Source of the DNA: Sphingobacteriales bacterium
Lineage (GTDB): Bacteria; Bacteroidota; Bacteroidia; Sphingobacteriales; Sphingobacteriaceae
Assembly (NCBI GenBank): GCA_015654985.1
Contig: JAATFW010000049.1
Span: forward strand, 1 to 37,062
DNA length: 37,062 bases
Direction of reading: 5' to 3'
Below, piece by piece: positions 3,888-37,062 of the stretch. Numbering within the stretch: the stretch's first letter is position 1; the number at the start of each line of letters is the position of its first letter. Position numbers and translations under genes: made by a program. The notes beneath the pieces are model-generated. The model did no database searches. It had not been told where the DNA came from and worked only from the letters and a program-made list of their open reading frames with translations.

Positions 3888-5333
3888 ATGATCTTTAAAA
3901 ACATCACACAGGTACTCTTAGCTATAAAAGCAGTTTTTTCCCTGATTATGTTTACTGCATTTACAGCAGAGGCGCAGGAAAAAATTACGCTGGAACAGGC
4001 TGTGGCAATTACATTGCAAAATAATCTTCAGATAAAACAGTCGCAGTTGGGTGAAGCTTTATCGCAGGAGGATCTGAAGCAATCAAAGCTTTACTTTTAC
4101 CCTACATTAAATGCAAGCTCTAATCTCGATTTTTCTTTTGGAAGGAATCCAGACCCTCAGACGTATCAGTTTGTGAATCAAAGAATAACCACAGCCAATG
4201 GTAATGCCTCTACTTCTCTTCCCCTCTTCCAGGGGTTTCGGTTGTGGCATCAGGTTTCTCAATTTAAATATCAACTGGAGGCTGATAAAAGTGCTACAAG
4301 GAAAATCGAAAATGACCTCTCCCTGACTGTTGTTACCACTTACCTGCAGATACTCAGTAACCAGGACCTTTTAACAGCAGCCCAGCAACAGCTTGAGCTT
4401 GCCAGGCTGCAGCTTGACAGGGCGCAGAAGCAGTTCGACGTAGGAAATAACACAGTAGCTGACCTGTCACAGGCAAAAGCCCAGGTTGCTACTGCTGAAC
4501 TTAATGTTACTACAGCCCGCAACCAGGTTGACATATCCTACCTGAATCTGGCTCAATTGATGGAACGTGATCCTGCAAGCCATTTTGAAGTAGTAAAACC
4601 GGTAATAAACCAGCTGGGAGATATTAATACTACTCCTGCGGCTGAAATCTATTCGCAAGCCGCAGATAATTATCCCGACATTACCCTGGCACATTACCGC
4701 ACACTTACGAGTTTAAAAGCGGTCGATGTTGCCAAAGCAGGATTATTTCCGCGTCTTACTTTCCAGGCCAACCTGGGCTCGGGATATTCCAGCAGTGTAT
4801 ACCATTCAACAGGCAGTACCGCCACAGGCGAAATGATTCAAATAGGCCACGTTCGCGGTACAGGAGAGATTGTAGAAACACCTGAGTACCTTACTTTCAG
4901 TGAAAGAACCCGTTTTGGCGATCAGCTAAGCGATAACTTCAGTCAATCGTTAGGATTTACTTTAAGCATTCCCATTTTCAATAATTACTCTTCAAGGATC
5001 AATGTCAGGAAAGCTAAGATAACCTATCAGAACGCCCAGGTCTCAGAACAGCTCGCAAGAAACAACTTTAATAAGATCATTTATCAGGCTGTAACTGATC
5101 TTCGGGCAGCAGAAAGCAGCTATAAATCTGCTAGCAGCGCGTTTGAGTCGTCAAAGGACGCCTTTAATGCTATTCAGCAACGTTATAATGTAGGTCTGGT
5201 AAACTCTTTGGACTTCAATCAGGCCCAGACAGATCTGAACCAGAAGGAGTTCGATCTTATCCAGAACCGCTATAATCTTATCTTCAGAAATAAGATCATT
5301 GATTTTTATCTCGGCAAACCCTTAACTTTTTAA
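3888..5333 (+). CDS. TolC-family outer membrane efflux channel
   Basis: Outer-membrane channel component of a tripartite exporter. The 481-aa protein starts with a hydrophobic signal peptide ending near AFTAEAQ and shows the two-repeat TolC layout. Each repeat has long helices rich in Q, A and N (for example LELARLQLDRAQKQFDVGN at about 166-184), and the family feature LEQAVAITLQNN follows the signal. The length fits the family. It is followed 19 bp downstream by an HlyD-type adaptor in the same direction, so the two are co-transcribed. No inner-membrane pump (ABC or RND) lies next to them, so the substrate cannot be inferred. Confidence 0.93.
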   Translation: MIFKNITQVLLAIKAVFSLIMFTAFTAEAQEKITLEQAVAITLQNNLQIKQSQLGEALSQEDLKQSKLYFYPTLNASSNLDFSFGRNPDPQTYQFVNQRITTANGNASTSLPLFQGFRLWHQVSQFKYQLEADKSATRKIENDLSLTVVTTYLQILSNQDLLTAAQQQLELARLQLDRAQKQFDVGNNTVADLSQAKAQVATAELNVTTARNQVDISYLNLAQLMERDPASHFEVVKPVINQLGDINTTPAAEIYSQAADNYPDITLAHYRTLTSLKAVDVAKAGLFPRLTFQANLGSGYSSSVYHSTGSTATGEMIQIGHVRGTGEIVETPEYLTFSERTRFGDQLSDNFSQSLGFTLSIPIFNNYSSRINVRKAKITYQNAQVSEQLARNNFNKIIYQAVTDLRAAESSYKSASSAFESSKDAFNAIQQRYNVGLVNSLDFNQAQTDLNQKEFDLIQNRYNLIFRNKIIDFYLGKPLTF

Positions 5334-5352
5334 AGAAAGCATACCAAATAAA

Positions 5353-6693
5353 ATGGCAAAGAAAAAGAACACATTAAAGTACCTGATCATAGGAGCAATT
5401 ATATTGGTTATAATTGCTGTTGCAGGCAACAAATTAGGCTGGTTTGGTAAAGGTGAAACAATACAGGTATCCACAGAGAAGGTACAGAAAAGATCGATCG
5501 TCGAAACGGTGTCTGCGAGCGGAAAGGTACAGCCTGAAGTAGAAGTAAAGCTGAGCTCGGAAGTTTCCGGGGAAGTTGTTGAACTGCTTGTAAAGGAGGG
5601 AGACGTTGTGAAAAAGGGGCAGCTATTATGCAAAATCCGCCCCGATATTCTTCAATCAGGTTATAACCGGACCGTTGCTTCCCTTAATACCCAGCGTGCA
5701 ACCCTGGCGTCGGCACAGCAGCAATTAAAGCAGGCTGAAGCTACTTTTAAGAATACAGAGGCAAGCTATAAAAGAAGCGAAGAGCTTTTTCATAAAAAGG
5801 TTTTATCTGCATCTGAATATGATGCAGCGCAGGCTGAGTACCTGGGGGCAAAGGCCAATCTCGAAGCTTTACGGCAAAATATTATTGGCTCAAAATATGG
5901 TGTAGAACAGTCACAGGCTGTAGTGAAAGAAGCTGCAGATAACCTTGCCCGTACTACTATCTATTCTCCGGTAGACGGAGTTGTTTCAAAGCTTTCGATA
6001 GAACTTGGGGAACGGGTGGTTGGAACTGCACAAATGGCTGGGACGGAAATTATGCGGATCTCTAACCTTAATACCATGGAAGTTAACGTTGATGTAAATG
6101 AGAACGACATTAACAGGGTAGCTTTAGGAGACGAGGCTGAAATAGAAGTGGACGCTTTTCAGGGAAAGAAATTTAAAGGGACTGTTACCGAAATTGGCAG
6201 TTCTGCCAATGTTGAAGGCACAAGTGCTGATCAGGTTACCAATTTTACGGTAAAGGTGAGGATCCTGCCCGAGTCGTATGCTGCTCTTCTGATACAAAAT
6301 GCCAAAAACAACTCGCCTTTCCGGCCCGGTTTATCTGCTACTGTAGATATACAAACTGAAAAAGCTACAGGATTAACTGTTCCGATCCAGTCGGTTACCA
6401 CACGTGATGAAGTGAAGGAGACAACAGTGGCCGGAAAACCTGCAACGGAGAAAAAAGCAGCCGTAAAACCTGTTGTAAAAGAATGCGTGTTTATCAATAA
6501 AGATGGCATTGCAAAACAGGTTTTCGTAACCACCGGGATACAGAATGACACCTATATTATAGTACTTTCGGGACTGAAAGGTAACGAAGAGGTGATATCC
6601 GGGCCTTTCACAGCCATTTCAAAAACACTTAAGGATGGCTCTAAATTAGAAAAAGTAAGCAAAGACAAACTTTTCGAAGGAGAGAAGAAGTAG
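5353..6693 (+). CDS. Efflux periplasmic adaptor (HlyD/MacA-type membrane fusion protein)
   Basis: Periplasmic adaptor linking an inner-membrane pump to the TolC-like channel encoded just upstream. The 446-aa protein has one N-terminal membrane anchor (about residues 9-26), a biotinyl-lipoyl-like half-domain with VVKKGQLLCKI (about 86-96), and a coiled-coil hairpin with heptad-like A/Q/L content (about 105-185). The second lipoyl half follows (IYSPVDGVVSKL), then a beta-barrel domain and a membrane-proximal domain. A K/A/T-rich insertion (about 360-375) sits in the last domain. The layout is closest to MacA, which works with a MacB ABC permease, but no macB is present here. The operon ends at the intrinsic terminator at 6746-6775. 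Confidence 0.92.
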   Translation: MAKKKNTLKYLIIGAIILVIIAVAGNKLGWFGKGETIQVSTEKVQKRSIVETVSASGKVQPEVEVKLSSEVSGEVVELLVKEGDVVKKGQLLCKIRPDILQSGYNRTVASLNTQRATLASAQQQLKQAEATFKNTEASYKRSEELFHKKVLSASEYDAAQAEYLGAKANLEALRQNIIGSKYGVEQSQAVVKEAADNLARTTIYSPVDGVVSKLSIELGERVVGTAQMAGTEIMRISNLNTMEVNVDVNENDINRVALGDEAEIEVDAFQGKKFKGTVTEIGSSANVEGTSADQVTNFTVKVRILPESYAALLIQNAKNNSPFRPGLSATVDIQTEKATGLTVPIQSVTTRDEVKETTVAGKPATEKKAAVKPVVKECVFINKDGIAKQVFVTTGIQNDTYIIVLSGLKGNEEVISGPFTAISKTLKDGSKLEKVSKDKLFEGEKK

Positions 6694-8453: not shown

Positions 8454-10268
8454 CTAATACCGTTTACGACGCTCGCGATCACCGCCGGTTCTTCCGGCTC
8501 CGCTGCGATCGCCACGGCTTTCGTCCCTGCGTTTTCCTGAAAAGTCGCGATAACCTCCGCTGCTGCGTTCGCGGCTTCCGCCTTCGCGTCTGAAACCACC
8601 GCTTCTTTCGCGGGAACCTCCGCCATCACGTTCTCCCGCCAGCTCAATTCTCACTGTCCGTCCATTAAAATCAACGGATTTAAAGTTTTGCTGAACGGCC
8701 TCGGCAACATCATTCTCTACTTCAAAGAAAGTATAAACGCCTTTAAGATCAATTTTACCTACCGATTTCCCACTGATTTTGGCATTATTACAAATGAAGC
8801 CAAGCATATCACCCCTGGTAAAGTCGTCAACAGATCCCAGGTTGATGAACAGGCGGGTGTAATCGCCTCTGGAAGAAGAACCACGGCTAAAGCGTTCGGT
8901 ACGTTCTCCGCGCTCTCCACGGTCTCCGCGGTCATCACCAACCGGTGCATTCAGATCGGGAGCATTTTTATAATAATCGAGGAAACGGTTGAATTCCAAA
9001 GAGGCAAAGCGTTTGATAATTTCTTCCTTATCCATCTCTGCAAATTCGTCCATAATCCGCTGGATATACGATTCCATCTGGGCTTCGTTCACTTCCACCT
9101 GGTGAACACGGTGAACCATGGCAAACAACTGCTTTTCGCAAACATCAAATCCATTAGGAACGTCTACTTTAGTAAATTTCTTACCAATGGTGCGTTCTAT
9201 CTGTCTGATCTTTCCGAGCTCTTTGCTGTTAATGATAGAAATGGAAACGCCGGATTTACCTGCACGTGCGGTACGGCCGCTCCTGTGTGTATAATTTTCA
9301 AGCTCATCTGGGAGCGAGTAGTTAATAACATGGGTAACGTCGTTCACATCGATCCCGCGGGCAGCTACATCCGTTGCAATCAGCAATTGAAGATTTCTGT
9401 CGCGGTAACGCTTCATTACCTTATCACGCTGTTGCTGAGAGAGATCTCCATGTAATGAATCAGCATTATATCCATCTTTAATGAGGGCCTCAGCAATTTC
9501 CTGTGTTTCTATTTTAGTACGGCAAAAAACAATACCAAATATTTCGGGATTGAAATCTACAATGCGTTTAAAGGCTGCATATTTATCGCGGGCACGGATT
9601 ACATAATATTCATGGTCTATATTAACATTCCCTGTATTTTGTTTACCCATGGTAAGCTCTACAGGATCAGTCATGTAATTTTTTGCTATGCGGCGCACTT
9701 CAGCCGGCATGGTAGCCGAAAACAACCAGGTCTTTTTATCATCCGGAGTGGTAGAGAGGATATGATCGATGTCTTCCTGAAAGCCCATATTGAGCATTTC
9801 ATCAGCTTCATCAAGCACAACATAACGCACTTCAGAGAAATTAATAGCCTTACGGTTAATAATATCAAGCATTCTGCCTGGTGTGGCTACAACAATCTGC
9901 ACACCACGTTTAATCTGCCTCAACTGATCAGAAATGCTGGCGCCACCATAGACGGCAACAACATGAACATCATTGAGGTTCTTGGCATAATTGTTCAGAT
10001 CACTGGTGATCTGTAAACATAATTCACGGGTTGGGCACAAAATGAGTGCCTGAGGATAATTTTTTGTAAAATCGATTAATTCTAACAAAGGAAGGCCAAA
10101 AGCGGCGGTCTTCCCTGTGCCGGTTTGGGCTAATCCGACAAAATCGTTGCTGCCTGAAAGTAAAACCGGGATTGATTGTTCCTGGATTGGCGTGGGAGTT
10201 TCAAATCCCAGATCAGTTATGGCATTAACAATATCATGACGGATACCCAGTGTACTAAATGGGTTCAT
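8454..10268 (-). CDS. deaD: DEAD-box RNA helicase with DbpA domain and RG-rich tail
   Basis: ATP-dependent RNA helicase that remodels structured RNA in ribosome assembly and cold adaptation (DeaD/CsdA type). The 604-aa protein has all the motifs: the Q motif with PTPIQ, AQTGTGKT (I), PTREL (Ia), TPGR, DEAD in VLDEADEM (II), SAT (III), IVFCRTK (IV), ATDVAARGIDV (V) and HRSGRTARAG (VI). After the helicase core a DbpA-type RNA-binding domain begins near YTRLFINLG (about residue 466). The last ~60 residues are an R/G/S/E-rich disordered tail ending RRKRY, an RNA-binding feature. A TATCTTTG promoter box and a 5'-end hairpin lie just upstream. It is divergent from nothing close and probably monocistronic. 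Confidence 0.96.
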   Translation of the reverse strand: MNPFSTLGIRHDIVNAITDLGFETPTPIQEQSIPVLLSGSNDFVGLAQTGTGKTAAFGLPLLELIDFTKNYPQALILCPTRELCLQITSDLNNYAKNLNDVHVVAVYGGASISDQLRQIKRGVQIVVATPGRMLDIINRKAINFSEVRYVVLDEADEMLNMGFQEDIDHILSTTPDDKKTWLFSATMPAEVRRIAKNYMTDPVELTMGKQNTGNVNIDHEYYVIRARDKYAAFKRIVDFNPEIFGIVFCRTKIETQEIAEALIKDGYNADSLHGDLSQQQRDKVMKRYRDRNLQLLIATDVAARGIDVNDVTHVINYSLPDELENYTHRSGRTARAGKSGVSISIINSKELGKIRQIERTIGKKFTKVDVPNGFDVCEKQLFAMVHRVHQVEVNEAQMESYIQRIMDEFAEMDKEEIIKRFASLEFNRFLDYYKNAPDLNAPVGDDRGDRGERGERTERFSRGSSSRGDYTRLFINLGSVDDFTRGDMLGFICNNAKISGKSVGKIDLKGVYTFFEVENDVAEAVQQNFKSVDFNGRTVRIELAGERDGGGSRERSGGFRREGGSRERSSGGYRDFSGKRRDESRGDRSGAGRTGGDRERRKRY

Positions 10269-24468: not shown

Positions 24469-26388
24469 TTAATATCCTGGGTTTTGCACCAGCGCTTTGT
24501 CAATATCTATTTCGCTTTGTGGTATGGGGAAGAAATACTGTCTTTTATCAAAAACACGATCTTCTACCTTTGTCCTCTTATAGAAATTGTCTCCATCGGC
24601 TTCAACGTTCATACCATAAATAGCCTTATTCTGGTTCTGTTCTGCAGTGCCCCAGCGTCTTACATCGAAAAAGCGGGAATTTTCAAAAGCTAATTCCACT
24701 CTTCTTTCGGCCATGATTGCTTTTGCCATCTCCTGTGAGTTTGCCGGTACCGGCAATGCGTTTGTCCCTGTTCCATACTTTGGTATACCAGCCCTTTCCC
24801 TTATAAGATTGACGTATTTCAGGATATCAGGATTAGATGGATCAGATTCGTTCAATGCCTCTGCATAATTCAGATAAACCTGCGCCAAACGTAACAGGAT
24901 ACAAACGCGGTCTTCAGTTCCTCTCGGTCCTTCAGGAGCACATTTTCTCACAACATATCCTGTTTTAGAAAAGTCATTGACACCCTGCAGTTTTCCGGCA
25001 TTTCCAGAATAGGTAAGGTCTGTGTATATAGCTCCGTCCTTATCATATAACCATTTCTGACCACAGAATGTAATATCAGCATAAAAGCGGGGCTCTCTGT
25101 TATAATACATTCTGCTTGTGTTTGCAGGAGCAAGCACACGGGTTGAAACTACCGGATCTTTATAATCACTGGTTATTTTTCCGGTCTCTGAATAGCCCGA
25201 AGCGGTATTTATAACAGGAGTTTTACCGTCAGTTTCATATCCTGAAACAGCAAGCTGGCCATTTGACATAAAATAAGCATCCACCATTTCCTGCGTAGCC
25301 CCTAAGGCGCCTCCGCCTTTATAGTCAGAGTTAACTCCTTTATGGTTAGGCGTTCTGTCGTACTGCATCGTCCCGGAGGAAGTTCCTATCCTGTAGAAAA
25401 TCAATTCGGTATAGCCCGACAGTTTAGTATAAGCGCCGCGGTTGGCGGCACGGCATGATAAATATGGATCCAGTACCCCATTGGTATATTCACGCTGCAG
25501 ATCGTAGAAACGGGGAACGTAATCGGCTATAAAGCTGGCTGCTTCGTCGGCTGCAGCTTTCCATCTGGTTTTCTTATCTGCATCCGACAGTTGGGGAAAT
25601 AGTTTTTTTCCATCCTGATTGGTAAGGCCTGCAAAATATTGATTGCTGCCGTTGAACAAAGGACTTGCGCGGAACATAAGCGCCTCGATGATGAAGGCAC
25701 GTGCTACCGTTTTATCGATTCTGCCATATCCCTCGCTGCTTGGGCTGCCTTCCAGGGAGACTTGCTCTATCAGACCTCCATTTATTGCACTTCTAAGTTC
25801 TGAAACAATGTAGTCGAAGCATTCGTCGGCGCTGTTTCTTGGCACCTGAAGTTCATCGAGGGGGGTGTCCTGAGAAATAATATCCCCGATAACCGGAACC
25901 GGCCCATAGGCCCTTACCAGGTAGAAATAGTAAATAGCCCGCAGGGCCCTGGCTTCAGCTACCCATTGATTTTTTGTTGTTTCTGACAACTCAGGACATG
26001 TAGGGGCATATTTTATAAAATCCGTTGCGGTATGAATACCGGTATACCAGCTTTTCCATCGTCTGCCTATAAGACCATCGGTGGCTGTAACTGTATTATT
26101 ATTCCATAAATGGCTGAGAACAGATGTCCAGGTATATTCAGCTTCATCACTGGCAGCAGTCCACGGTCCATAGGTTTTATAGAGTTCAGTTTCCTGCAAC
26201 TGCCTCTGGTTATATTCGTCGGGAATATAGGTGTAAACACTGGCAAGATATTGCTTTGTAGCATCTCTTGTTTCAAAGATTTTTTCCATCGACAGCCTGT
26301 CTGTAGGCACCTGGTCGAGATATTTTTTACAGGAGGTGCTCAGAAATAAAGCAAGCATTCCTATTGCGATATATAATTTTTTCATCAT
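24469..26388 (-). CDS. susD: SusD/RagB-family nutrient-binding lipoprotein (PUL 1)
   Basis: A 639-aa outer-membrane lipoprotein that binds glycan and caps the SusC transporter. The lipobox LSTSC places the lipid on C20, followed by KKYLDQVPTDRLS, the canonical SusD N-terminus. The family C-terminal block is present (RRVELAFENSRFFDVRRWG, then the final PIPQSEIDIDKALVQNPGY). It is somewhat longer than the ~550 aa of classic SusD, as in many environmental Bacteroidota. It starts 6 bp after SusC, so they are translationally linked. Confidence 0.95.
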   Translation of the reverse strand: MMKKLYIAIGMLALFLSTSCKKYLDQVPTDRLSMEKIFETRDATKQYLASVYTYIPDEYNQRQLQETELYKTYGPWTAASDEAEYTWTSVLSHLWNNNTVTATDGLIGRRWKSWYTGIHTATDFIKYAPTCPELSETTKNQWVAEARALRAIYYFYLVRAYGPVPVIGDIISQDTPLDELQVPRNSADECFDYIVSELRSAINGGLIEQVSLEGSPSSEGYGRIDKTVARAFIIEALMFRASPLFNGSNQYFAGLTNQDGKKLFPQLSDADKKTRWKAAADEAASFIADYVPRFYDLQREYTNGVLDPYLSCRAANRGAYTKLSGYTELIFYRIGTSSGTMQYDRTPNHKGVNSDYKGGGALGATQEMVDAYFMSNGQLAVSGYETDGKTPVINTASGYSETGKITSDYKDPVVSTRVLAPANTSRMYYNREPRFYADITFCGQKWLYDKDGAIYTDLTYSGNAGKLQGVNDFSKTGYVVRKCAPEGPRGTEDRVCILLRLAQVYLNYAEALNESDPSNPDILKYVNLIRERAGIPKYGTGTNALPVPANSQEMAKAIMAERRVELAFENSRFFDVRRWGTAEQNQNKAIYGMNVEADGDNFYKRTKVEDRVFDKRQYFFPIPQSEIDIDKALVQNPGY

Positions 26389-26394
26389 GATCTA

Positions 26395-29300
26395 TTAAAA
26401 AGAGAAATTAACACCCATTGAATAGCTTGAAATATTTGGGTATTTCGTTCCATTGTTTGTATTTAACTCAGGGTCCCACAGCTTAAATTTACTCAGAGTG
26501 AAAAGGTTGGTACCCATCATATAAACAGAAGCATTTTTCAGATTAGCCCTTTTTATCCAGCTTTTCGGAAGGTTACAGGAGATCTGCATCGTCTTTAATC
26601 TTAAAAAGCTTACATCTTTCTGCCACCAGGTACTGGTCTGGAAGTTATTGATATTACTGGTTTGATCAGAGCCATAGGCTAAACGGGGATAAAACACATC
26701 CTGATCTGGATTTTCGGCGGTCCAGCGGTCGTCAATATTTGAGAAGAGGTTACCGCCTCCACCGTCGCCTCTGAACGGATTAGCACTGTTACCGCTCAGC
26801 ATCCTGTCGGCGTCATGCACTCCCTGAAATAAAAGGCCCAGTGAGAATTGTTTATAAGTAGCGTTAAAACCAAATCCGTAGATAATTTTAGGCACATCAC
26901 CCCTGCCAATATACGACTGATCGTAAGCATCTATCTTCCCATCGCTATTCAAATCCCTGTACCTGATGTCTCCGGGCTTTACTTCGCTGAACTGAACAGG
27001 GAATGGCCTGAGAACGGCTGCTTTATCTGCAGCAGCTAAAGACTCCCACCTTCTGATATCGTCGATCTGCTCCTGTGTATAAAGGCCATCGGCAATATAT
27101 CCTTTGCGGGCATTTACGTTACTGCCCCCTTTATTCATCCACGGATAACGCTGGGTCGGTTGATCGCTGTCTATCCATTTGTCTTTATTATAGGTAAAAT
27201 TTCCTCTTAAAGAGATCAGCCAGTCGGTACCGAACCGTTTGTTATACTCAAGTGACGAGTCAAAGCCTTTATTATCTACCACTCCCACATTCCCGTACGG
27301 ATCAGACATGTACCCCAGGAATGAAGGGATAGACTCATTTCTTTTCAGTAAAATATCTGTACGATGCTCCTTAAACAGATCGAAAATAATCGACAGATCG
27401 TCTCTCATTAATTTCAGATCTATTCCCAGATCCTGTTTACGGGATTCTTCCCAGCCTATATTTACCGCATTATTGTTTACTTTAACCCCACTGGTTTTAC
27501 CGTTGTTGCTTCCCCAGTTATATCCAAATCCACTGTCGTACGCCATCTGCTCAAGGAACATAAACCGCCTGTCTGAAACATTACTGTTCCCTATTTTACC
27601 ATCGGTATACCGGACTTTCAAAAATGACACGACATCTTTCAAAGGTTCCCAGAATTTTTCATTGGATGGTACCCATCCCACTCCAAAAGCAGGAAACGTT
27701 CCGAATCGTTTGCTGGGGGCAAAGTTTTCAGAACCGTTATATCCGATATTAAACTCGGCAAAATAACGGTCGTCCCATGAATAAGTAGCACGTCCGGCAA
27801 GCCCCATCATTCTGTAAGGGATAGACGATTCAAGCGAACTTACAGGGTACAGGAGTTTATTCTGCTCATTGAACAGCACCAACCCTCCTATACGGTGTTT
27901 ACCGAAAGTCCTGTCGTAGGTAAGAGATGCTTCGAGGTAGGTCTTTTTATTATTGTCACTGGATGTTTGACTGAAGCCCAGCACGTTAGAACCTGCATAA
28001 GTCTGCACCAATATAGGTTGATTGTTAAGATCGTACGGAACATCGCGGTTAGTAAAATAGAATGTAGACTCCCGTTTGCCCTGATTAATGTTTACATTAT
28101 TATATACGTCGTAGGCAAACATCCCGGAGAGTTTTAACCCTGAGGTGAGCATTCCCAGGTCCTGCGTTACCCGCAGGTTTGAATAAATCTGATTTCTGGT
28201 TTGATTACTGAATCCCCTTCGCGTGGCATCTGCATACGGATTGCGGTACCCTCCATTCGGATTAAGTCCCGGCACATATGCCTTCCCGTTCACATAAAAC
28301 ATTTTCGGATAATCTACCGGCGTAATCTCCATAGCTGCCGAATAGATATCGCCTGAAGAGATTGCAGGATAATTGCCTTCTCCAAGATACCCCTGGGCTC
28401 CGATATCAACAGAAGTCGACTCGGTAACTTTTAAGTTGAGATTAGTAGTAAAATTATACCGGTTAAAACTCATCTTAGAGTTATAATTTTCGATGTTGTC
28501 GGTTTTCATTAACCCCGTTTCATTATAATAGCTCACAGATGCGTAGTAATTTGCACTGGCGCTGCCCCCTCTTACATTTACATTTGCACGCCGGTTATGC
28601 CCCCAGTCGTTAAATATTTCATCAAGCCAGCTTACGTTAGGGTATAAATACGGGTCAACGTTATTGCGGGTGTTATTGATAACAGACTGTGAATATTTAG
28701 GTTGCTGACCGCTGTTCGCCAGAGCTTCATTTACCACGTTCATATAAGTTATGCCATCAGAAAGGTCAACTCTTTTGGTAAAACGTGTAATTGATTCATA
28801 ATAGTCGGTACTTACAACCGGCTTCCCGATTTTTCCCGGCTTCGTTTTTATCAGGATAACCCCGTTAGCGCCCCGTACACCATACACTGCCGTTGCAGAT
28901 GCGTCTTTAAGGATTGTTAATGATTCAATATCTTCGGGGTCAATGTCGTTAAAGCCGCGTTCCACTCCATCCACCAGGATGAGCGGGCTTGACGAATTTG
29001 GAGTAGAGATCCCGCGGATCCAGATATCAGCACCGTCTTTGCCCGGTTCTCCGGTACGCTGAACTGCAACTACCCCTGAAAGGCGCCCGGCTAAAACACT
29101 GGATAAACTGGCCGAAGGCGTTTTTATATCTTTCATTTTCAGACTTGCCTGAGATCCGATATTGCTTATTTTACGCTGTTCTCCGAATCCGACAACCACC
29201 AGTTCATTTAGTGTGTTAACCATTTCTTCAAGAACTACATCGTAGATATTTTTACCACCCGCTTTCACTTCTATCTCTGTGGCATTAAACCCGACGAACG

Positions 29301-29847
29301 TAAATCTCAGTACAACATCCTTATTTCCGACACGAATTTCGTAGCGGCCATCCGCATCTGAAGTGGTACCGACGCCGGTACCTTTTATTGCAACACTCGC
29401 ACCTGGTAAAGAGACACCTTTTGAATCAGTAATCCGACCGGTTATTTTTCTGTCGTCCTGCTTATTAGAATCAAATACAGGGGGTTTACCGGTTATAAGT
29501 ACCGTTTTACGGTTAATAATATATTTAAGAGGCTGTCCGGCAAAACACTGTTCCAGAACATCTGTAAGCTCTTCATTTACAACATTTACTGTAATAGGCT
29601 TTAAGTCCTTAACAGAAACATTATTATAAAGAAAATCAAAATCAGTTTGTGTTCTTAGTTTCGCCACTACTTCCTTTAGGGAAGCGTTTTCAACCTTTAA
29701 GCTTATTTTTTGAGCATTCGTTGTTGAGGCCCTGAGCTGCAACAACACTGCTGTTATTAAAATAAAGGTTAATTTCATTTTTAAGAGTACATTGGATATT
29801 ATGCAAGCCCTATTCCTGAACACCAGTCCAGTAAATTTTTTATACAT
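26395..29847 (-). CDS. susC: SusC/RagA TonB-dependent transporter with STN signalling domain (PUL 1)
   Basis: A 1150-aa outer-membrane transporter importing oligosaccharides with energy from TonB. The order is an extended signal region ending near TTNAQ, an STN domain (about 47-117), a carboxypeptidase-D-like regulatory domain (about 134-213), a TonB-box-like ELVVVGFGE (about 214-222), a plug with LILVDGVERGFNDIDPEDIE and SATAVYGVRGANGVI (about 290-335), and a 22-strand barrel ending SMGVNFSF. The STN domain is the part that contacts an FecR-type anti-sigma factor in the periplasm, matching the FecR and ECF genes upstream. The long N-terminal leader starting MYKKFTGLVFRNRA is typical of Sphingobacteriales and is kept. 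Confidence 0.97.
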   Translation of the reverse strand: MYKKFTGLVFRNRACIISNVLLKMKLTFILITAVLLQLRASTTNAQKISLKVENASLKEVVAKLRTQTDFDFLYNNVSVKDLKPITVNVVNEELTDVLEQCFAGQPLKYIINRKTVLITGKPPVFDSNKQDDRKITGRITDSKGVSLPGASVAIKGTGVGTTSDADGRYEIRVGNKDVVLRFTFVGFNATEIEVKAGGKNIYDVVLEEMVNTLNELVVVGFGEQRKISNIGSQASLKMKDIKTPSASLSSVLAGRLSGVVAVQRTGEPGKDGADIWIRGISTPNSSSPLILVDGVERGFNDIDPEDIESLTILKDASATAVYGVRGANGVILIKTKPGKIGKPVVSTDYYESITRFTKRVDLSDGITYMNVVNEALANSGQQPKYSQSVINNTRNNVDPYLYPNVSWLDEIFNDWGHNRRANVNVRGGSASANYYASVSYYNETGLMKTDNIENYNSKMSFNRYNFTTNLNLKVTESTSVDIGAQGYLGEGNYPAISSGDIYSAAMEITPVDYPKMFYVNGKAYVPGLNPNGGYRNPYADATRRGFSNQTRNQIYSNLRVTQDLGMLTSGLKLSGMFAYDVYNNVNINQGKRESTFYFTNRDVPYDLNNQPILVQTYAGSNVLGFSQTSSDNNKKTYLEASLTYDRTFGKHRIGGLVLFNEQNKLLYPVSSLESSIPYRMMGLAGRATYSWDDRYFAEFNIGYNGSENFAPSKRFGTFPAFGVGWVPSNEKFWEPLKDVVSFLKVRYTDGKIGNSNVSDRRFMFLEQMAYDSGFGYNWGSNNGKTSGVKVNNNAVNIGWEESRKQDLGIDLKLMRDDLSIIFDLFKEHRTDILLKRNESIPSFLGYMSDPYGNVGVVDNKGFDSSLEYNKRFGTDWLISLRGNFTYNKDKWIDSDQPTQRYPWMNKGGSNVNARKGYIADGLYTQEQIDDIRRWESLAAADKAAVLRPFPVQFSEVKPGDIRYRDLNSDGKIDAYDQSYIGRGDVPKIIYGFGFNATYKQFSLGLLFQGVHDADRMLSGNSANPFRGDGGGGNLFSNIDDRWTAENPDQDVFYPRLAYGSDQTSNINNFQTSTWWQKDVSFLRLKTMQISCNLPKSWIKRANLKNASVYMMGTNLFTLSKFKLWDPELNTNNGTKYPNISSYSMGVNFSF

Positions 29848-29924
29848 TTGAATGTTAGATTTAATTAAAAATGATTGTTAGTTGCAATTAATTAATTATC
29901 CTAATCCAGCTTATTAGCTGCGCT

Positions 29925-29952
29925 GCCGGGAGCGGGACCAAACGCTCCCGGC
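29925..29952. promoter_or_regulatory. GC-rich hairpin between fecR and susC
   Basis: Perfect 10-bp arms GCCGGGAGCG (29925-29934) and CGCTCCCGGC (29943-29952) with an 8-nt loop. It lies in the 248-bp gap between the regulators and the transporter. No strong U-run follows on the minus strand, so it may slow or shield rather than terminate transcription. Confidence 0.6.
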
Positions 29953-30095
29953 TTTCAGGATAATTTATACCTAAAGCCCGCAGGCATTTTAGCCTATGTT
30001 ATTTCTTTCATCAGATTTTATAATTAATGCTTATTTTGGTTATTTGCAGGTTAGCTTAAAAGCGAATCAGTGTTGATCCACTTTCGGTAGTATGA

Positions 30096-31310
30096 TTAGT
30101 ATATATTCGAAATAATTACCCTCCTTCCTTCGATTTTAAAATGTATTTTCCCCAATAATTCCAGGTTATGCAAAATCTCAGATAAATTTGCCGAACGGGA
30201 GAAAGTTCCTCCAAACCGTTCATCTTTATTAAAACTATTATATTCTACATCCACATTATACCAACGGCTTATCACTTTCATTATACTGATTATGTCCTGG
30301 TTATCAAATATAAAATAGCCGCTCTTCCACGCAAGCACTTCAGATGGATTAACATTAGAAACATCGATCGGGGTGCTGTTCACAAAAACGTTGGATTGCT
30401 GTCCCGGCCTTAATAATTCTTGCTGCCCCAAAGAGAGATCGTTCACCAGCACGCTTCCTTCCAATAAAGTAGTGCTGATATTTGGTTCGTCATTATATGC
30501 CTTCACATTAAAGTTCGTGCCTAATACTTTCACTTCCTGCTGAGCTGCTTTTACGATAAATGGATGGGCCTTATCTTTTGCCACTTCGAAATAACCCTCT
30601 CCGTCCAGTTCAACCCGGCGCTCATTTTTAGTAACGAAGTTTACAGGATATTTCAGAGAGGAGGCAGCATTGAGCCATACGTTTGTACCGTCGGGCAGGC
30701 GTACCTGGTATTGCCCGCCTCTTGGAGTCTCTATGGTGTTGTATTCTGAAGCTGAAGTATTATTGCTCAGATCAGAAACAGTATAGATCAGTTTCCCGTC
30801 ACTTGTTTTGGTGATTACAATGCCCGACTGTTTAGCGATCGCTCCGTTTGCAGCATTGGTCAACGATATTTTTTTTCCGTTTGATAAAGTAAGATAAGCT
30901 TTATACCCTCCGGGCTTAATATCATTTTTAATCAGACGACCGGCTTTTATCAACGCGGCATTTCGCTGGCCCTGATAAATCAGTACACCAAATGTACCTA
31001 TGATAAATAATGAAGCAGCAAAAGCCAGCTTCATATATAACGGGTACCCGTGAGATTCTGGCTTTACCTGAAAGGTGGCTGAGGAAGAGATCCTTTGTTT
31101 CAATAAGGCAAATTGTTCTTCTGATTCTTTCAGCTTTACTTCATGGGCCAATGCTATAATTAAGCTTTTCAATTCTTCTACCCTGGCGCGGTACTCAGGG
31201 TTTTCCGAAAGCCATTTCTCCCATTGACGACTGTCATTTTCGTTGCGCGAGAAGCAATAGTTCAGAAAACTCTCGTCATTAACCAGGTGTGAAATGTCTT
31301 TGTCGGGCAT
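30096..31310 (-). CDS. FecR-family anti-sigma factor
   Basis: A 404-aa inner-membrane regulator. A cytoplasmic N-terminal region of about 90 residues (sigma-binding; it contains WEKWLSENPEYRARVEE) is followed by one transmembrane helix (about 93-112) and a periplasmic FecR domain. That domain has NTIETPRGGQYQVRLPDGT, LNAASSLKYP and GEGYFEVAKD, the core motif, then the C-terminal STN-like region with ISRWYNVDVEY. It would receive the signal from the SusC STN domain and release or activate the ECF sigma factor. It lies 49 bp after the sigma gene in one transcript. Confidence 0.95.
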   Translation of the reverse strand: MPDKDISHLVNDESFLNYCFSRNENDSRQWEKWLSENPEYRARVEELKSLIIALAHEVKLKESEEQFALLKQRISSSATFQVKPESHGYPLYMKLAFAASLFIIGTFGVLIYQGQRNAALIKAGRLIKNDIKPGGYKAYLTLSNGKKISLTNAANGAIAKQSGIVITKTSDGKLIYTVSDLSNNTSASEYNTIETPRGGQYQVRLPDGTNVWLNAASSLKYPVNFVTKNERRVELDGEGYFEVAKDKAHPFIVKAAQQEVKVLGTNFNVKAYNDEPNISTTLLEGSVLVNDLSLGQQELLRPGQQSNVFVNSTPIDVSNVNPSEVLAWKSGYFIFDNQDIISIMKVISRWYNVDVEYNSFNKDERFGGTFSRSANLSEILHNLELLGKIHFKIEGRRVIISNIY

Positions 31311-31359
31311 ATACTATTGTAGCTAATCAGACAATAGAGCAATATGCTTTATCTTTTCA

Positions 31360-31983
31360 CTACTGGTTATGAAAAAATAATATAAAAAATAATGAAATTG
31401 TGATAATGGCAAGGGAGAGCATACTTAAATGCTCTTTTGAAATAAGTAATTTCAGTTTATCAACTGCCTTATAAACAGTATTATAAACCGTATTTACCGA
31501 AACGTTATTGATGCCTGATATCTCTTTGTAAGACAATCCCAGGTAAAATTTCTGATAGACCATTTTTCGCTGCTTTTCGGGCAGCTGGCTTACATACGTC
31601 TTTAATATTTTACTTACGTCGTCCTGAATATTCTGCCTGATGTATAAAGACTCTACTGAGGGAGTTGCAGTATAACCGGGCAACTCATACACCTCAAGAC
31701 TATATGCTTCGCTGAAGTTCTCTTTACGGAATAGCTTCCGGAGAAAGGCTGTGATGATGTAACTATGATGATCTTTAATATTGGTTAACTTTTTACGGTT
31801 TTCCCATAAATAAAGAAAAAGGTCGTTAATGCAATCTTTAACCTTACCCGCATTAGCCCCCTTTTTAAAACCTATGAAAGAAAGATAATGGTAATAATGA
31901 GTGTACAGGTCATAATAAGCCCTCTCATTGTCCTCAAGGATGAAAATAGCCCATTCCTGTTTTAAACCTGCCCCTTGTTTCAC
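31360..31983 (-). CDS. ECF sigma factor with C-terminal hydrophobic segment
   Basis: A 207-aa RNA polymerase sigma-70 factor of the ECF type found with FecR in PULs. The sigma-2 region contains DCINDLFLYLWENRKKL (about 50-66), and the sigma-4 helix-turn-helix contains LGLSYKEISGINNVSVNTVYN (about 148-168). The start is GTG at 31983: the frame has stop codons just upstream and no nearby ATG. Unusually, the protein ends with a hydrophobic run (about 186-204, HLSMLSLAIITISLFFILFF) followed by HNQ, which could be a membrane segment or an amphipathic tail. It has its own TACCTTTG promoter box about 60 bp upstream. Confidence 0.93.
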   Translation of the reverse strand: MKQGAGLKQEWAIFILEDNERAYYDLYTHYYHYLSFIGFKKGANAGKVKDCINDLFLYLWENRKKLTNIKDHHSYIITAFLRKLFRKENFSEAYSLEVYELPGYTATPSVESLYIRQNIQDDVSKILKTYVSQLPEKQRKMVYQKFYLGLSYKEISGINNVSVNTVYNTVYKAVDKLKLLISKEHLSMLSLAIITISLFFILFFHNQ

Positions 31984-32382: not shown

Positions 32383-33705
32383 TTATTTTACTAATACTGG
32401 CCTGATTGGTTCGCCGCTGATGTTTATTACGCCATCTTCTGAAATATTAAAATCATTGATATAAGACGTCCGCGGCCCTACACTGTTAACGCTTGCATGA
32501 GCATGATAAATATACTTATAGCTTCCACCCGCACTAACGAATGGTGCTCCATGTCCAGTACCCACCAATCCGGCAGCAGCAGGCTTATCTCTGCGCAGGA
32601 TTGGATTTCCGCTATATTTCTTCCAGGGCCCCTTCGGTGAACCCGCCGTGGCATATCCTACAGCATAATCCTGGCTTTCATAGTGGTTGGCAGAATAAAT
32701 TAAATAATAAGTACCGCCTCTCTTCAGCACAGAGGGACCTTCTGCAATGGTGCCCTGTTTTCTTTCCCACGGGTCTTCAGCACTGATACATTTTGTCAGC
32801 GTCCCGGTCTTTATGCTATTCAGGTCGTCATTCATTTCTGCTACCCAAATAACATTACCGTCCGTAAAACGTACATAGTATAGATAAGGAGTCCCGTCAT
32901 CATCGATAAAAAAAGAGGTATCGATCCCTTTTTCGTTAGCCACAATAGGCTTTTTCTCATACTGTACAAAAGGCCCTTCGGGTCTGTTAGCCGAAGCCAC
33001 ACAAATATGCTCATCGACGGAATAGAACATATAAAACCGGTTTTTTGACGCCACATAATATACTTCAGGAGCCCAAAACCACCTGTCTCCCCATGAATTT
33101 TCTGGCGACAAAGCAAGATTTGCACTTCGTTTCCAATGCTTAAGGTCTTCTGAGATGTACACTTCAAAGCCGTTAATCCGCGTACCGTAAGCATAATATT
33201 TGCCGTCGTAATACAACACAAATGGGTCTGCAACAGGCAATTTGTTATCGATGATCTCATAGGACACTGGAGCATCCTCTTTAGCAGGGGTGGCAGTGAT
33301 CATCGTTTTTTCTGACCGTTTTCCGTAGTTATCAATGGCCACAGCAGTAATCTGATAGGTTGCATATACAGGCAGTTTAAGCAGATAAGAACCTGTTTTC
33401 TCACCCAATACATTTACATTGACGTTGACCGTTATAGTATTTTTCTCATCAACATCTCCCGCCCGTATATAAGAGATCGCAACAGAAACTATATTCGATG
33501 TATTACTCCAGGCAATTTTCAGCTCGTTCGCACGATCCGTCTCTTCTGCAATAAAGTTGGTAACCTGATCCACTTTTTCATTTTCCTGATTCCCCGCCTG
33601 TTCTTCATCAGGAACTGCAGGATCGTTATGCCCACAGGATGAGGTCAATGTAAGAGATAGTATCAGGCATGTGATCAAAAATAAACAATATTGAATACTT
33701 CGCAT
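32383..33705 (-). CDS. GH43-family glycoside hydrolase lipoprotein (PUL 2, distal)
   Basis: A 440-aa lipoprotein (signal MRSIQYCLFLI..., cysteine C24 in LTSSC). Residues about 45-140 are an FN3-like domain, and about 155-440 a five-bladed beta-propeller of GH43. The expected catalytic set is visible: D160 (base, in VADPFV), D262 (in IDTSFF, pKa modulator) and E322 (acid, in IAEGPSV). The GTGHGAPF segment closes the propeller. GH43 enzymes typically release arabinofuranose or xylose; the subfamily is not determined here. The N-terminal ~140 residues and about 30 bp upstream are near-identical to the next gene, but the catalytic parts differ. It is 41 bp after the other GH43 gene. Confidence 0.9.
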   Translation of the reverse strand: MRSIQYCLFLITCLILSLTLTSSCGHNDPAVPDEEQAGNQENEKVDQVTNFIAEETDRANELKIAWSNTSNIVSVAISYIRAGDVDEKNTITVNVNVNVLGEKTGSYLLKLPVYATYQITAVAIDNYGKRSEKTMITATPAKEDAPVSYEIIDNKLPVADPFVLYYDGKYYAYGTRINGFEVYISEDLKHWKRSANLALSPENSWGDRWFWAPEVYYVASKNRFYMFYSVDEHICVASANRPEGPFVQYEKKPIVANEKGIDTSFFIDDDGTPYLYYVRFTDGNVIWVAEMNDDLNSIKTGTLTKCISAEDPWERKQGTIAEGPSVLKRGGTYYLIYSANHYESQDYAVGYATAGSPKGPWKKYSGNPILRRDKPAAAGLVGTGHGAPFVSAGGSYKYIYHAHASVNSVGPRTSYINDFNISEDGVINISGEPIRPVLVK

Positions 33706-33735
33706 AATTGTACATTTTTAAAATGTTGAAAGGAT
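33287..33735 (-). repeat. Duplicated N-terminal module, copy A
   Basis: About 450 bp covering the 5' end of the distal GH43 gene plus about 30 bp of upstream DNA is highly similar to 34702-35140. Similarity stops abruptly at the FN3-GH43 junction (GGGGTGGCAGTGATCATCG on the plus strand). Confidence 0.85.
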
Positions 33736-33746
33736 TAATTATTCCG

Positions 33747-35111
33747 CTATTCTCCCGAAGGTGCTTCTATATTTTGTCCGATCTTCGCCGGCACCCCGAA
33801 ATTCGGTGTGCCATCAGTATTCCAGATAAACTTCTGGATCCTTACATTGCGACCGTTATTATCTCCCGCGTTCGGAAGCGAACGGGCGTGATAAATAATC
33901 CAATCCTCTTTACCGTCGGGAGATTTAAAAAAGCCGTTGTGCCCCGTACCATAGGCACCTCCTGCAGGATTTTGAGAGAAAACCGGTGAACTTGCTTTAA
34001 CCCAATCTGAACGGACCATAGGATCGCCACCTGTTTTTAACCTTAACAATCCAAGGCTATAGTTATCTACCCAATAACCACTTCCGGAATAGATCAAAAA
34101 CACATCGCCTTCCGGGTTCTTTAATATTTCAGGGCCTTCGTTAATGGCTGCACCATATTTCTCCCACGCATATTCGGGGGCTGAGATCAGTACCCGTTCG
34201 CCATCTATTGTCCACGGGTTGCTCATTTTGGCGATATAAAGATTCTGAGGAGCGGCTCCCGCTATCCCTCCCGACCATATCATATACAATTGATTGTTGT
34301 GCTCCAGGATTGTTCCGTCGATTGCCCATTGATCGGTCGGGTCTGCTATTTTCCCTTTGAACAACCAGCTTCCCTGAAGCGGGTTGCCCGAAGCATTTTC
34401 AATCACATACATGCGGTGATTGGCATTGCTGCCATCATCTGCGGCAAAATATGCATACCATTTGCCGCTGATCCTATGCAACTCAGGCGCCCATAAGTTC
34501 TTTGAATAACCCGTACCCGAAGCCGGTCTCCATAAGGTTACCGGAGTGGCTTTACCCAGCTCAGAAACTTTCTTTGTAGGGTACACCACAATGCTTCCTC
34601 CCTGGGTATAGGTATAATAATAAGTTCCTTCACTTTCTATGATCCAGGGGTCGGCACCACTCAATAATGGATTTGTGAAGGTAGCAATTTCTATCGAACC
34701 CGGGGTGGCAGTGATCATCGTCTTTTCTGACCGTTTTCCGTAATTATCGATGGACACAGCAGTGATCTGATAGGTTGCATATACAGGCACCTGAAGCAAA
34801 TAAGTACTTTCTTTCTGGCCGTATACATTTACATTGACAGTTACTGCATTTTTCTCATCATCTCCCTCCCGAATATAAGAGATCACAACAGAAACTATAT
34901 TGGATGGATTAGTCCAGGCAATTCTCAGCTCATTCGCATGATAAGTCTTTTCCGCGATAAAGTTGGTAACCTGATCCACTTTTTCATTTTCCTGATTCCC
35001 CACCTGTTCTTCATCAGGAACTGCAGGATCATTACGCCCACAGGATGAAGTCAGTGTAAGAGATAGTATCAGGCAATTGATCAAAAACAAATGATATTGA
35101 ATACTTCGCAT
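33747..35111 (-). CDS. GH43-family glycoside hydrolase lipoprotein (PUL 2, proximal)
   Basis: From ATG 35111 a 454-aa lipoprotein, chosen because it matches the signal peptide MRSIQYHLFLI of the sister gene; an upstream in-frame codon would add 28 non-signal residues. An FN3-like domain (about 45-137) precedes a GH43 propeller. Catalytic candidates: D154 in GADPWI, D265 in AIDGTIL and E325 in INEGPEI, with NLWAPELH and GTGHNGFF as further family marks. The acidic set and APEL motif are typical of GH43 enzymes acting on arabinose-containing substrates. Its catalytic domain is clearly different from the neighbour's, so the two probably cut different linkages of one glycan. Confidence 0.9.
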   Translation of the reverse strand: MRSIQYHLFLINCLILSLTLTSSCGRNDPAVPDEEQVGNQENEKVDQVTNFIAEKTYHANELRIAWTNPSNIVSVVISYIREGDDEKNAVTVNVNVYGQKESTYLLQVPVYATYQITAVSIDNYGKRSEKTMITATPGSIEIATFTNPLLSGADPWIIESEGTYYYTYTQGGSIVVYPTKKVSELGKATPVTLWRPASGTGYSKNLWAPELHRISGKWYAYFAADDGSNANHRMYVIENASGNPLQGSWLFKGKIADPTDQWAIDGTILEHNNQLYMIWSGGIAGAAPQNLYIAKMSNPWTIDGERVLISAPEYAWEKYGAAINEGPEILKNPEGDVFLIYSGSGYWVDNYSLGLLRLKTGGDPMVRSDWVKASSPVFSQNPAGGAYGTGHNGFFKSPDGKEDWIIYHARSLPNAGDNNGRNVRIQKFIWNTDGTPNFGVPAKIGQNIEAPSGE

Positions 35112-35140
35112 AACATACATTTTTAAAATTTTGAAAGGAT
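34702..35140 (-). repeat. Duplicated N-terminal module, copy B
   Basis: Counterpart of 33287-33735. It includes the upstream TTTTTAAAA-rich stretch, the signal peptide and the FN3-like domain. Small in-frame length differences lie inside the FN3 loop (the VDEK and VNVNV region). Confidence 0.85.
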
Positions 35141-35311
35141 ACATAAAAGAGATTGAGATTACCATTTCATGACCTGTTCGAAATTCGGCATTCAAATAGT
35201 GGAATTGACATGTGCCGAAGGCGCCGGTTGATCAGCAATTATATGAATCAAGCTGTTTTTTCCAGTGTATGATGGCGATTTGATCCCACCCATAGAAATT
35301 GTATAGCTGAA

Positions 35312-35366
35312 GTTAATAATATTATGGGGTTGCCCGAAAATACTGACAACCCCACATATTATTAAC
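35312..35366. terminator. Long hairpin between DUF1735-type gene and GH43 pair
   Basis: Left arm 35312-35332 (GTTAATAATATTATGGGGTTG) and right arm 35347-35366 (CAACCCCACATATTATTAAC) pair along about 18 positions with one small internal loop; the apical loop is 14 nt. It starts 13 bp after the upstream gene's stop on the transcribed strand. It probably reduces read-through into the GH43 genes or protects the mRNA 3' end. Confidence 0.7.
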
Positions 35367-35378
35367 AGATCTTTCCTT

Positions 35379-36380
35379 CTACCATTGAATTTGCTGATCC
35401 TCATCAGGTATCAATGTATTCAGGTCGCGTTGCATGGACAATGTACCATCTACCCTATATTTAAGGCGTTGTCCGGGGACCGTAGTATAATCCTCAAACT
35501 CGTATGACAAATAAAGTGTAATATAGATATGTTTCATATATGGAAGTTGTGGGTCCCATTCCTCATTCTTTGTATAATAAGATTGCGCTGCCCCCAGCTT
35601 AAATTTGTTATTTCCCGCATTATCACTCCAGATTTCCAGTTTCCGTTTTTGAATATCTATGATCTCATCCGTAAACCGGATAAATACTTTATAATTTTTG
35701 CGGTCCAGATAATCTATATCCCTGGTTCCGGCATAGAGAAAAATGGTTTTATTATCCGCCACAAAAGTCCGGTAGGTATTCAACGTCAGAGGGTCGGTAT
35801 TCCCTTCAAGGAATATATAATACAACGTGCCGCCGTATTCGCCAGAGTAATCATTAAATGGACTAATACGTAACATAGCTCTCCGGTATTGTTTGTTTGG
35901 ATTAGCTTTATAATCGTACGAAGGATCATCCAGGATCTGCAAGGGTAATACCCATTTATCAGATTGATCCAGATCTCCCAACGTAAACTCGATCGGTACT
36001 GTAACCGTGCTTACACCCGCCGGCACCTCTATTGTTTCGGGCATGCTATAATATTTGCTATCCAATTGCCTGAAATATAGCTCCTGGCGCTCGCCATATT
36101 GCTCCTGATTTAATCTTGCCAGCGTATCAGCATCCAAGCCGATATGTATGATACGACTTTTAGTATTTGGGGTTGAACCACTGATAACAATCGGAAGGTT
36201 GAATCGTACTTTTCCTTCAGGATTATACCGTAAGTTACACGATGTTACTCCCTGAGCATTGGGTTCTGCTTTAAATGATGCCATTTGGATGAATTGTTCA
36301 TCTTTCCATTCATCATTACATGAAACAAAGCATATCGCTGTTGTTATCACTAAATATAGAATATATATATTCTTCTTCAT
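35379..36380 (-). CDS. PUL accessory lipoprotein (DUF1735/DUF4973-like)
   Basis: A 333-aa lipoprotein (lipobox FVSC, C21, followed by NDEW). An N-terminal beta-sandwich (about 35-165, with FNLPIVISGS and TVPIEFTLGDLD) and a C-terminal beta-rich domain (about 175-333, with FNDYSGEYGGTLYY and the DGTLSMQRDL ending) match the DUF1735 (BT_3987-like N-terminal) plus DUF4973 arrangement. Such proteins lie next to SusD in many Bacteroidota PULs and are thought to be surface glycan-binding proteins. It starts 24 bp after the partial SusD gene, so the same transcript is likely. Confidence 0.82.
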   Translation of the reverse strand: MKKNIYILYLVITTAICFVSCNDEWKDEQFIQMASFKAEPNAQGVTSCNLRYNPEGKVRFNLPIVISGSTPNTKSRIIHIGLDADTLARLNQEQYGERQELYFRQLDSKYYSMPETIEVPAGVSTVTVPIEFTLGDLDQSDKWVLPLQILDDPSYDYKANPNKQYRRAMLRISPFNDYSGEYGGTLYYIFLEGNTDPLTLNTYRTFVADNKTIFLYAGTRDIDYLDRKNYKVFIRFTDEIIDIQKRKLEIWSDNAGNNKFKLGAAQSYYTKNEEWDPQLPYMKHIYITLYLSYEFEDYTTVPGQRLKYRVDGTLSMQRDLNTLIPDEDQQIQW

Positions 36381-36404: not shown

Positions 36405-37062
36405 TTATTCAGGATTTGTCCAGCCAGGATTTTGGGTCAGCTCTTTGTTGCGTTTAAGTTCATCAAAATGGATAGGCCAAAACCACATCTTAAGCGTAAA
36501 TATAGAAGGTAACGACGGGATCGCGACGGGTGTATGGAAAAGCACTGACTGCTCTCTGGTAGAATAGGCATTACAGCCATAAATCGGAGCTGACTCCTCT
36601 GCCGCAGCATCCGTCCAGCGGCGTAAATCGAAATAACGTTGTCCTTCGGCAAATAACTCGATCTGCCGCTCCCGTTTCAATTTTATACGGAATTTAGCCG
36701 GATCTGCATATACATCACTTGTATAATCAGGCACTCCGCCGCGGATCCGAACAGGCTGGATCCCTTTTTTCATTTCCACAATATCCCGCGATATAGAATG
36801 AGTTTTGCTGCCATCCCATGAAGGAATACTATAGGATCCATTCAATTCATTCAATGCTTCCGCATAGATCAGCAGCACTTCCGCATAGCGGATGGCAGGA
36901 TCAACTTTTTGCTTCATGCGGGACTGATCGTATGCAGTAACAGCCACATTACTGATATCATCCGGGTGTATATACTTCTTTACGCCAACCCCTGAACGTG
37001 GCCAGTAAGTTGTATTCTTATACCCGTTAGGGTCTCCCCGATAGTAAAATATCTGCACATTG
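36405..37062 (-). CDS. susD: SusD/RagB-family protein, C-terminal part (PUL 2, runs off window)
   Basis: The last ~218 residues of a SusD-like glycan-binding lipoprotein; the frame stays open to the right edge, so the start lies outside. The family C-terminal block is clear: RYAEVLLIYAEALNEL, then RERQIELFAEGQRYFDLRRW, and the final PIHFDELKRNKELTQNPGW. A SusC partner is expected just beyond the window. The GTG at 37056-37058 is internal and not the true start. Confidence 0.93.
   Translation of the reverse strand, partial: NVQIFYYRGDPNGYKNTTYWPRSGVGVKKYIHPDDISNVAVTAYDQSRMKQKVDPAIRYAEVLLIYAEALNELNGSYSIPSWDGSKTHSISRDIVEMKKGIQPVRIRGGVPDYTSDVYADPAKFRIKLKRERQIELFAEGQRYFDLRRWTDAAAEESAPIYGCNAYSTREQSVLFHTPVAIPSLPSIFTLKMWFWPIHFDELKRNKELTQNPGWTNPE

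Follow-up and report, generated by a model that had tools for sequence, protein, structure and literature searches.

How did two adjacent genes, both encoding GH43 glycoside hydrolases, come to carry nearly the same front end joined to different catalytic domains? The pair lies in a stretch of DNA of 37,062 nt (the window) from a Sphingobacteriales bacterium (assembly GCA_015654985.1, contig JAATFW010000049.1). Genes A and B stand in tandem on the minus strand, separated by 41 bp, downstream of a gene for a DUF4973/BT_3044-like lipoprotein and of a partial SusD gene. The features used below are as follows.

32383 to 33705, minus strand: gene A (440 aa), predicted lipoprotein leader, linker, FN3 domain and GH43 catalytic domain A
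33747 to 35111, minus strand: gene B, the same leader, linker and FN3 module, then GH43 catalytic domain B
33287 to 33735, minus strand: copy A of the shared tract, in which 30 bp of upstream DNA precede leader, linker and FN3, by nucleotide alignment
34702 to 35140, minus strand: copy B of the shared tract, in which 29 bp of upstream DNA precede leader, linker and FN3, by nucleotide alignment
33706 to 33735, minus strand: AT-rich upstream stretch of A, common to both copies, within the gap between A and B
35112 to 35140, minus strand: AT-rich upstream stretch of B, common to both copies
33286 to 33573, minus strand: FN3 domain of A, predicted to have seven strands, by predicted structure and structure matches
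34701 to 34979, minus strand: FN3 domain of B, by profile search and alignment
32386 to 33285, minus strand: catalytic domain A, GH43; nearest solved structure, 3kst_A
33750 to 34700, minus strand: catalytic domain B, GH43; nearest solved structures, 9nxj/9nxg, 3akf and 3k1u
35379 to 36380, minus strand: PUL lipoprotein upstream of A and B, DUF4973/BT_3044-like C domain
36405 to 37061, minus strand: C-terminal portion of SusD, truncated where the contig ends

Gene B comes to 454 aa when counted from the ATG at which homology starts; the listed open reading frame begins at an upstream TTG, at 35195. As signs of a probable PUL, the window has the SusD part and the upstream DUF4973 gene, the contig ending inside SusD. 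At the corresponding locus of a congener genome (G005), SusC adjoins SusD. In the 267 bp upstream of B (35112 to 35378), a search for a gene remnant returned no match of note among the fetched loci apart from the sequence itself and a 25-bp repeat, and one 53-residue frame from there had no Pfam match. Directly beyond gene A, at 24469 to 31983, lies a second SusD/TonB receptor set, accompanied by genes of the FecR and sigma factor kinds.

Local nucleotide alignment of A (33735 to 33287) with B (35140 to 34702) gave 392 identical positions in 439 ungapped columns (449 with gaps), about 89% identity, running from about 30 bp upstream of the ATG through the leader, linker and FN3 domain (BLASTN E = 4e-150). 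Over the 138 codons of the module, the two genes were 88.6% identical in nucleotides and 83% in amino acids, with dN 0.088 and dS about 0.25. In both genes, the match ended at the codons for ...TATP. The last 20-codon bin of the module was 92% identical in nucleotides, the next 45%. Past TATP, the best local score between A and B was 26, against a mean of 21.8 and a maximum of 29 for shuffled sequences, so no nucleotide similarity is left there. The catalytic domains themselves were 29% identical in amino acids, with saturated dS. As a control, 125 pairs of neighboring ORFs on the same strand were compared across 19 loci, the window included, and there was no second pair with such a 5′ module match.

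These results bear out the preliminary description of the pair as near-identical leader and FN3 modules, matching from about 30 bp of upstream DNA onward, mounted on different catalytic domains. The interval that it gave, 33287 to 35140, is the exact outer edge of both tracts, and the abrupt stop that it reported at the catalytic boundary was recovered at nucleotide level. A gradual decay across the catalytic domain, which it had named as the mark of a simple old duplication, was not seen; the drop is a step. The synonymous comparison of module with catalytic part that it proposed gives the same picture.

The FN3 domain was predicted as a seven-strand sandwich with pLDDT 90 (AlphaFold2, 15 relatives). 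Its best structural match was the N-terminal FN3 of a Bacteroides GH76, 6u4z (residues 50 to 146; Foldseek E 1.1e-05; VIA-align Z 14.5, rmsd 1.8 Å over 94 residues, 22 to 23% identity). Eukaryotic FN3 domains ranked next in Foldseek and VIA-align, the nearest within 1 Z unit. By this model, the spacer domain folds as FN3. At E values up to 10, Pfam returned nothing of FN3 type for either module of the window, and one relative (L054) matched Pfam fn3 at E 0.0045, below the cut-off. The Pfam fn3 entry is a sequence profile rather than the defining feature of the fold, and it misses many FN3 folds.

The leader is a hydrophobic helix followed by Ser-Cys, which is invariant in 11 aligned rows although the leaders differ. 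A and B are therefore likely lipoproteins, with predicted lipidation. The surface export signal described for lipoproteins in the accessible text of PMC5080379 is K-(D/E)2 or an SDDDD-like stretch directly after the Cys; here, the sequence is C-G-[HR]-N-D-P-A, with a single acid at +5 and further acids later, which departs from that consensus. The linker of both proteins is acidic. The leader would anchor the protein in the outer membrane, with the FN3 domain holding the catalytic domain away from it. A and B may be exposed at the surface, and the module may serve secretion and display. Because the module would be an anchor and spacer, its match between A and B does not imply a common substrate.

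Both catalytic domains matched Pfam GH43 (PF04616) far above the cut-off of 32.2 bits (A, 176.8; B, 187.6). The GH43 acids act as base (Asp), modulator (Asp) and acid (Glu). The ADP, ID and EGP columns were invariant across 11 rows, A and B included, and we take their three acids to be this catalytic set. NCBIfam supplied no enzyme name for either gene, giving only matches far below its cut-offs.

In gene conversion, or concerted evolution, paralogous stretches come to be closer to each other than to their orthologues. The congener carries gene B with its module, and we compared all three module copies. Module dS (NG86) was 0.26 between A and B (95% range, 0.14 to 0.40), 0.62 between B and the congener's B (0.48 to 0.93) and 0.62 (three-way alignment) to 0.69 (pairwise) between A and the congener's B; across 500 paired codon bootstraps, the first of these was the lowest 499 times. 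Third positions united A with B at 34 sites, B with the congener's B at 10 and A with the congener's B at 8. Three sequences alone cannot separate a common branch from a fast outgroup, and catalytic domain B was therefore used as a yardstick: 47 of its changes fell to the congener and 32 to the window, with 12 unclear sites set aside. The module skew of 34:8 exceeds this 47:32 (one-sided Fisher test, p = 0.013), and a faster congener lineage therefore does not explain the likeness of A and B. The longest run of identity between A and B at variable sites covered 14 sites at linker residues 38 to 52 (permutation p = 0.0066), and across the leader and linker (residues 1 to 53), rooted derived states numbered five for A with B and one for B with its orthologue. 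Since A and B differ less at silent sites than B and its orthologue do, the leader and linker appear to have been homogenized recently, most simply by gene conversion or replacement of a 5′ end. The preliminary description had offered gene conversion or tandem duplication with replacement of a catalytic domain; the dS values of 0.26 and 0.62 favor the former.

Gene B as a whole differed from its orthologue by a dS of 0.62 in the module and in the catalytic part, compared with 1.34 for SusD, 1.39 for DUF4973, 0.97 for a DEAD helicase and 2.17 or saturation for three further core genes. Because its dS lies below those of SusD and DUF4973, gene B has probably been transferred horizontally, moving between lineages into the same locus, and all dating here is relative.

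The fusion of FN3 to catalytic domain A is, by its distribution, old and earlier than the match between A and B. It recurs with the same junction, TATP|A(K/E)(E/N)DAP, in Sphingobacterium, Petrimonas and Proteiniphilum, and with TATP|AEKDA in Bacteroides. The linker past TATP is alike as well (window A, TATP-AKEDAPVSYEII; S. alkalisoli, TATP-AKEDAPLSYEII; Petrimonas, TATP-AEEDAPPVVEVI). Gene A is thus not a catalytic domain freshly mounted on the module of B. In a tree of 21 catalytic A domains (L024 to L030, unread by the sequence pattern, and the truncated L023 omitted), FN3 was present in 10 and absent from 11; the best tree needed six changes, and well-supported branches force three or more. 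By this count, FN3 has been repeatedly gained or lost among the relatives. Between two of these relatives (G210 and G216), homology resumes exactly at a TATP|AKEDAP junction, the same boundary as in the window. At another locus (L088, 9629 to 10618), a catalytic A gene directly after DUF4973 has a leader resembling the window's (MKHIPYRLLSITCLLLML) without FN3, so leader and FN3 may travel separately.

For catalytic domain B, 17 of the 30 loci returned were examined and 15 were readable (L070 and L071 were not). The FN3 of this module was joined to it in two of the 15, the window and the congener; the other 13 had leader and linker without FN3. As this fusion is found in the window and one congener only, B is the probable borrower, anciently, and probably acquired the module before it parted from the congener's copy.

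The history that we favor combines these points, and we give it a probability of about 0.68, jointly with the reading of A and B as two GH43 enzymes of one SusC/SusD locus, presumably exposed at the surface. FN3 joined to catalytic domain A would be the old arrangement of this type of locus. In an ancestor of the window and the congener, catalytic domain B would have gained the leader, linker and FN3, probably from an A-type neighbor. After the two B genes had parted, the 5′ end of one window copy would have overwritten that of the other, through gene conversion or some comparable local recombination, in a tract that stopped at TATP, where homology ended. Leader and linker would show the overwrite most clearly, the FN3 core having been taken only in patches or earlier. 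The direction B to A seems the likelier because module and catalytic dS between B and its orthologue are equal (0.62 and 0.62), which is what an orthologue left undisturbed should show; the reverse, A to B soon after an old graft, is less likely. An identical trace is left by gene conversion and by one local crossover in which the old 5′ end is lost. General concerted evolution differs in that here the likeness is confined to the 5′ module, because the remaining sequence would not be homologous enough.

A catalytic A gene arriving by horizontal transfer might instead have been joined in one event, beside B, to a duplicated B front end, which we consider unlikely. It would fit the finding that close relatives of catalytic domain A (71 to 84% identity) occur in 16 other genomes, all of genus g17, the best in the window's own genus reaching only 54 to 55%; the congener, too, has B but no close catalytic A at its locus. 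Against it, catalytic domain A retains the post-TATP linker of the FN3-bearing A genes found elsewhere, so an incoming A gene would already have had an FN3 domain, and the window's A is A-type at residues 57 to 58 and 63, where the two B genes agree on other residues. This account partly overlaps the favored one, as a 5′-end replacement on arrival.

The FN3 core sends a conflicting signal. In the FN3 protein tree (in which the FN3 of one sequence, Saren_A, was trimmed seven residues too early), the two B modules grouped together with support 97/90 and the window's A fell outside, although a clade of A and B was not rejected (p-AU 0.131). Rooted FN3 residues (54 to 140) gave one derived state for A with B and four for B with its orthologue, and these two also share two indels; with a single congener carrying the module, all rooting here rests on one outgroup sequence and distant ones. 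At the silent sites of the FN3 alone, support for A with B was weaker, the two being closest in 370 of 400 bootstraps. Neither the contrast between leader and FN3 (Fisher p = 0.08) nor the clustering of contrary sites (p = 0.085) reached significance. The tree, the four residues against one and the indels are what would be expected if the module had been duplicated long ago and had diverged slowly without conversion, the congener's B having evolved fast. We hold this to be decidedly unlikely, since the dS bootstraps, the third-position skew relative to catalytic B and the five leader and linker residues against one all speak for a later event. We read the module instead as a mosaic, with leader and linker homogenized and the FN3 core only in part.

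A recent duplication of a whole gene in this lineage, followed by replacement of one catalytic domain, would account for the upstream stretch, leader and FN3 common to the tandem genes but is very improbable, because FN3-bearing catalytic A in other genera and FN3-bearing catalytic B in the congener make both fusions older than the match. This part of the preliminary description is thus unlikely for A, and a similar event is still needed for the older fusion of FN3 to B.

N-terminal FN3 domains on PUL enzymes and gene conversion among surface genes of Bacteroidota are already known kinds of observation, as far as the accessible text of the sources goes. The Bacteroides GH76 6u4z likewise places an N-terminal FN3 before a glycoside hydrolase, differing in its catalytic domain and in the low identity given above. 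The SusE-like enzymes BT2857 and BT3158 have an N-terminal FN3-like domain, predicted to lie near the membrane, and differ from A and B in their other middle and C-terminal, CBM32-like domains (accessible text of PMC8211771). In Porphyromonas gingivalis, surface proteins undergo domain rearrangement and gene conversion, so that there, as would be the case here, recombination reshuffles the domains of Bacteroidota surface proteins; those changes are between strains and affect antigens and RagAB, whereas the present pair consists of enzymes from a single locus (accessible text of PMC5266723). In the open-access literature, we found no report of gene conversion of PUL enzyme modules or of this combination. 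The A/B pair then looks like ordinary module reuse, one front end having most likely been copied over the other. It offers a relatively dated natural case of Bacteroidota fitting different glycan enzymes with one anchor-and-spacer unit, and cautions that N-terminal likeness of neighboring PUL enzymes is uninformative on substrate. Because FN3 has come and gone repeatedly on catalytic domains that are nearly alike (present in 10, absent from 11), natural pairs exist for probing the role of the spacer.

Finally, we looked for the module elsewhere. The window's genome holds it only twice at better than E = 0.1. Two of six genomes of the genus have it, the window's included, the second being the congener with gene B only. 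In the genus to which the close relatives of catalytic domain A belong, 8 of 93 genomes have it. A broad FN3 profile run on 395 genomes of the class (E <= 1e-7, no more than 13 candidates scored per genome) matched only the window's genome; the Sphingobacterium, Petrimonas and Bacteroides copies come from other searches. A scan of genome contigs yielded 12 named loci with the module: eight with catalytic A (Sphingobacterium, Petrimonas, Proteiniphilum), two with GH76 (Bacteroides) and two with GH88/105 (Parapedobacter, S. corticibacterium). In the loci scanned with Pfam, the partner enzymes were confirmed; L056 was assigned by likeness to L055. The proposed search of relatives for the same module on other glycoside hydrolases thus turned up GH76 and GH88/105. 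In Petrimonas (L045) and Proteiniphilum (L047), three close genes bear it (GH43, GH76 and GH88/105), and in Bacteroides faecis two neighboring genes do (GH43 A and GH76). With several neighboring enzymes bearing it, the module belongs to this type of locus and is found on several enzyme families.

The FN3 sequences group mostly by partner enzyme in the protein tree, which argues that exchange is rare, and as the Petrimonas and Proteiniphilum copies group by enzyme rather than by genome, there is no homogenization there. The earlier suggestion that one PUL reuses the module to mount new enzymes thus fits the three neighboring genes in two relatives and is tempered by the rarity of exchange. More speculatively, and with considerable doubt on our part, the leader, linker and FN3 might form a standard adaptor of this type of PUL, exchangeable among neighboring GH43, GH76 and GH88/105 genes at a recurrent breakpoint between TATP and the catalytic domain and occasionally rehomogenized, that would give the enzymes of one locus the same face toward SusCD or toward each other. 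In Parapedobacter sp. SGR-10 (L055), a GH88/105 gene with the module and a catalytic A gene without it share a locus (4845 to 6335 and 8813 to 9811). In the Proteiniphilum MAG (L047, 2485 to 4049), the FN3-GH76 gene is split over two frames, by a break or a sequencing error.
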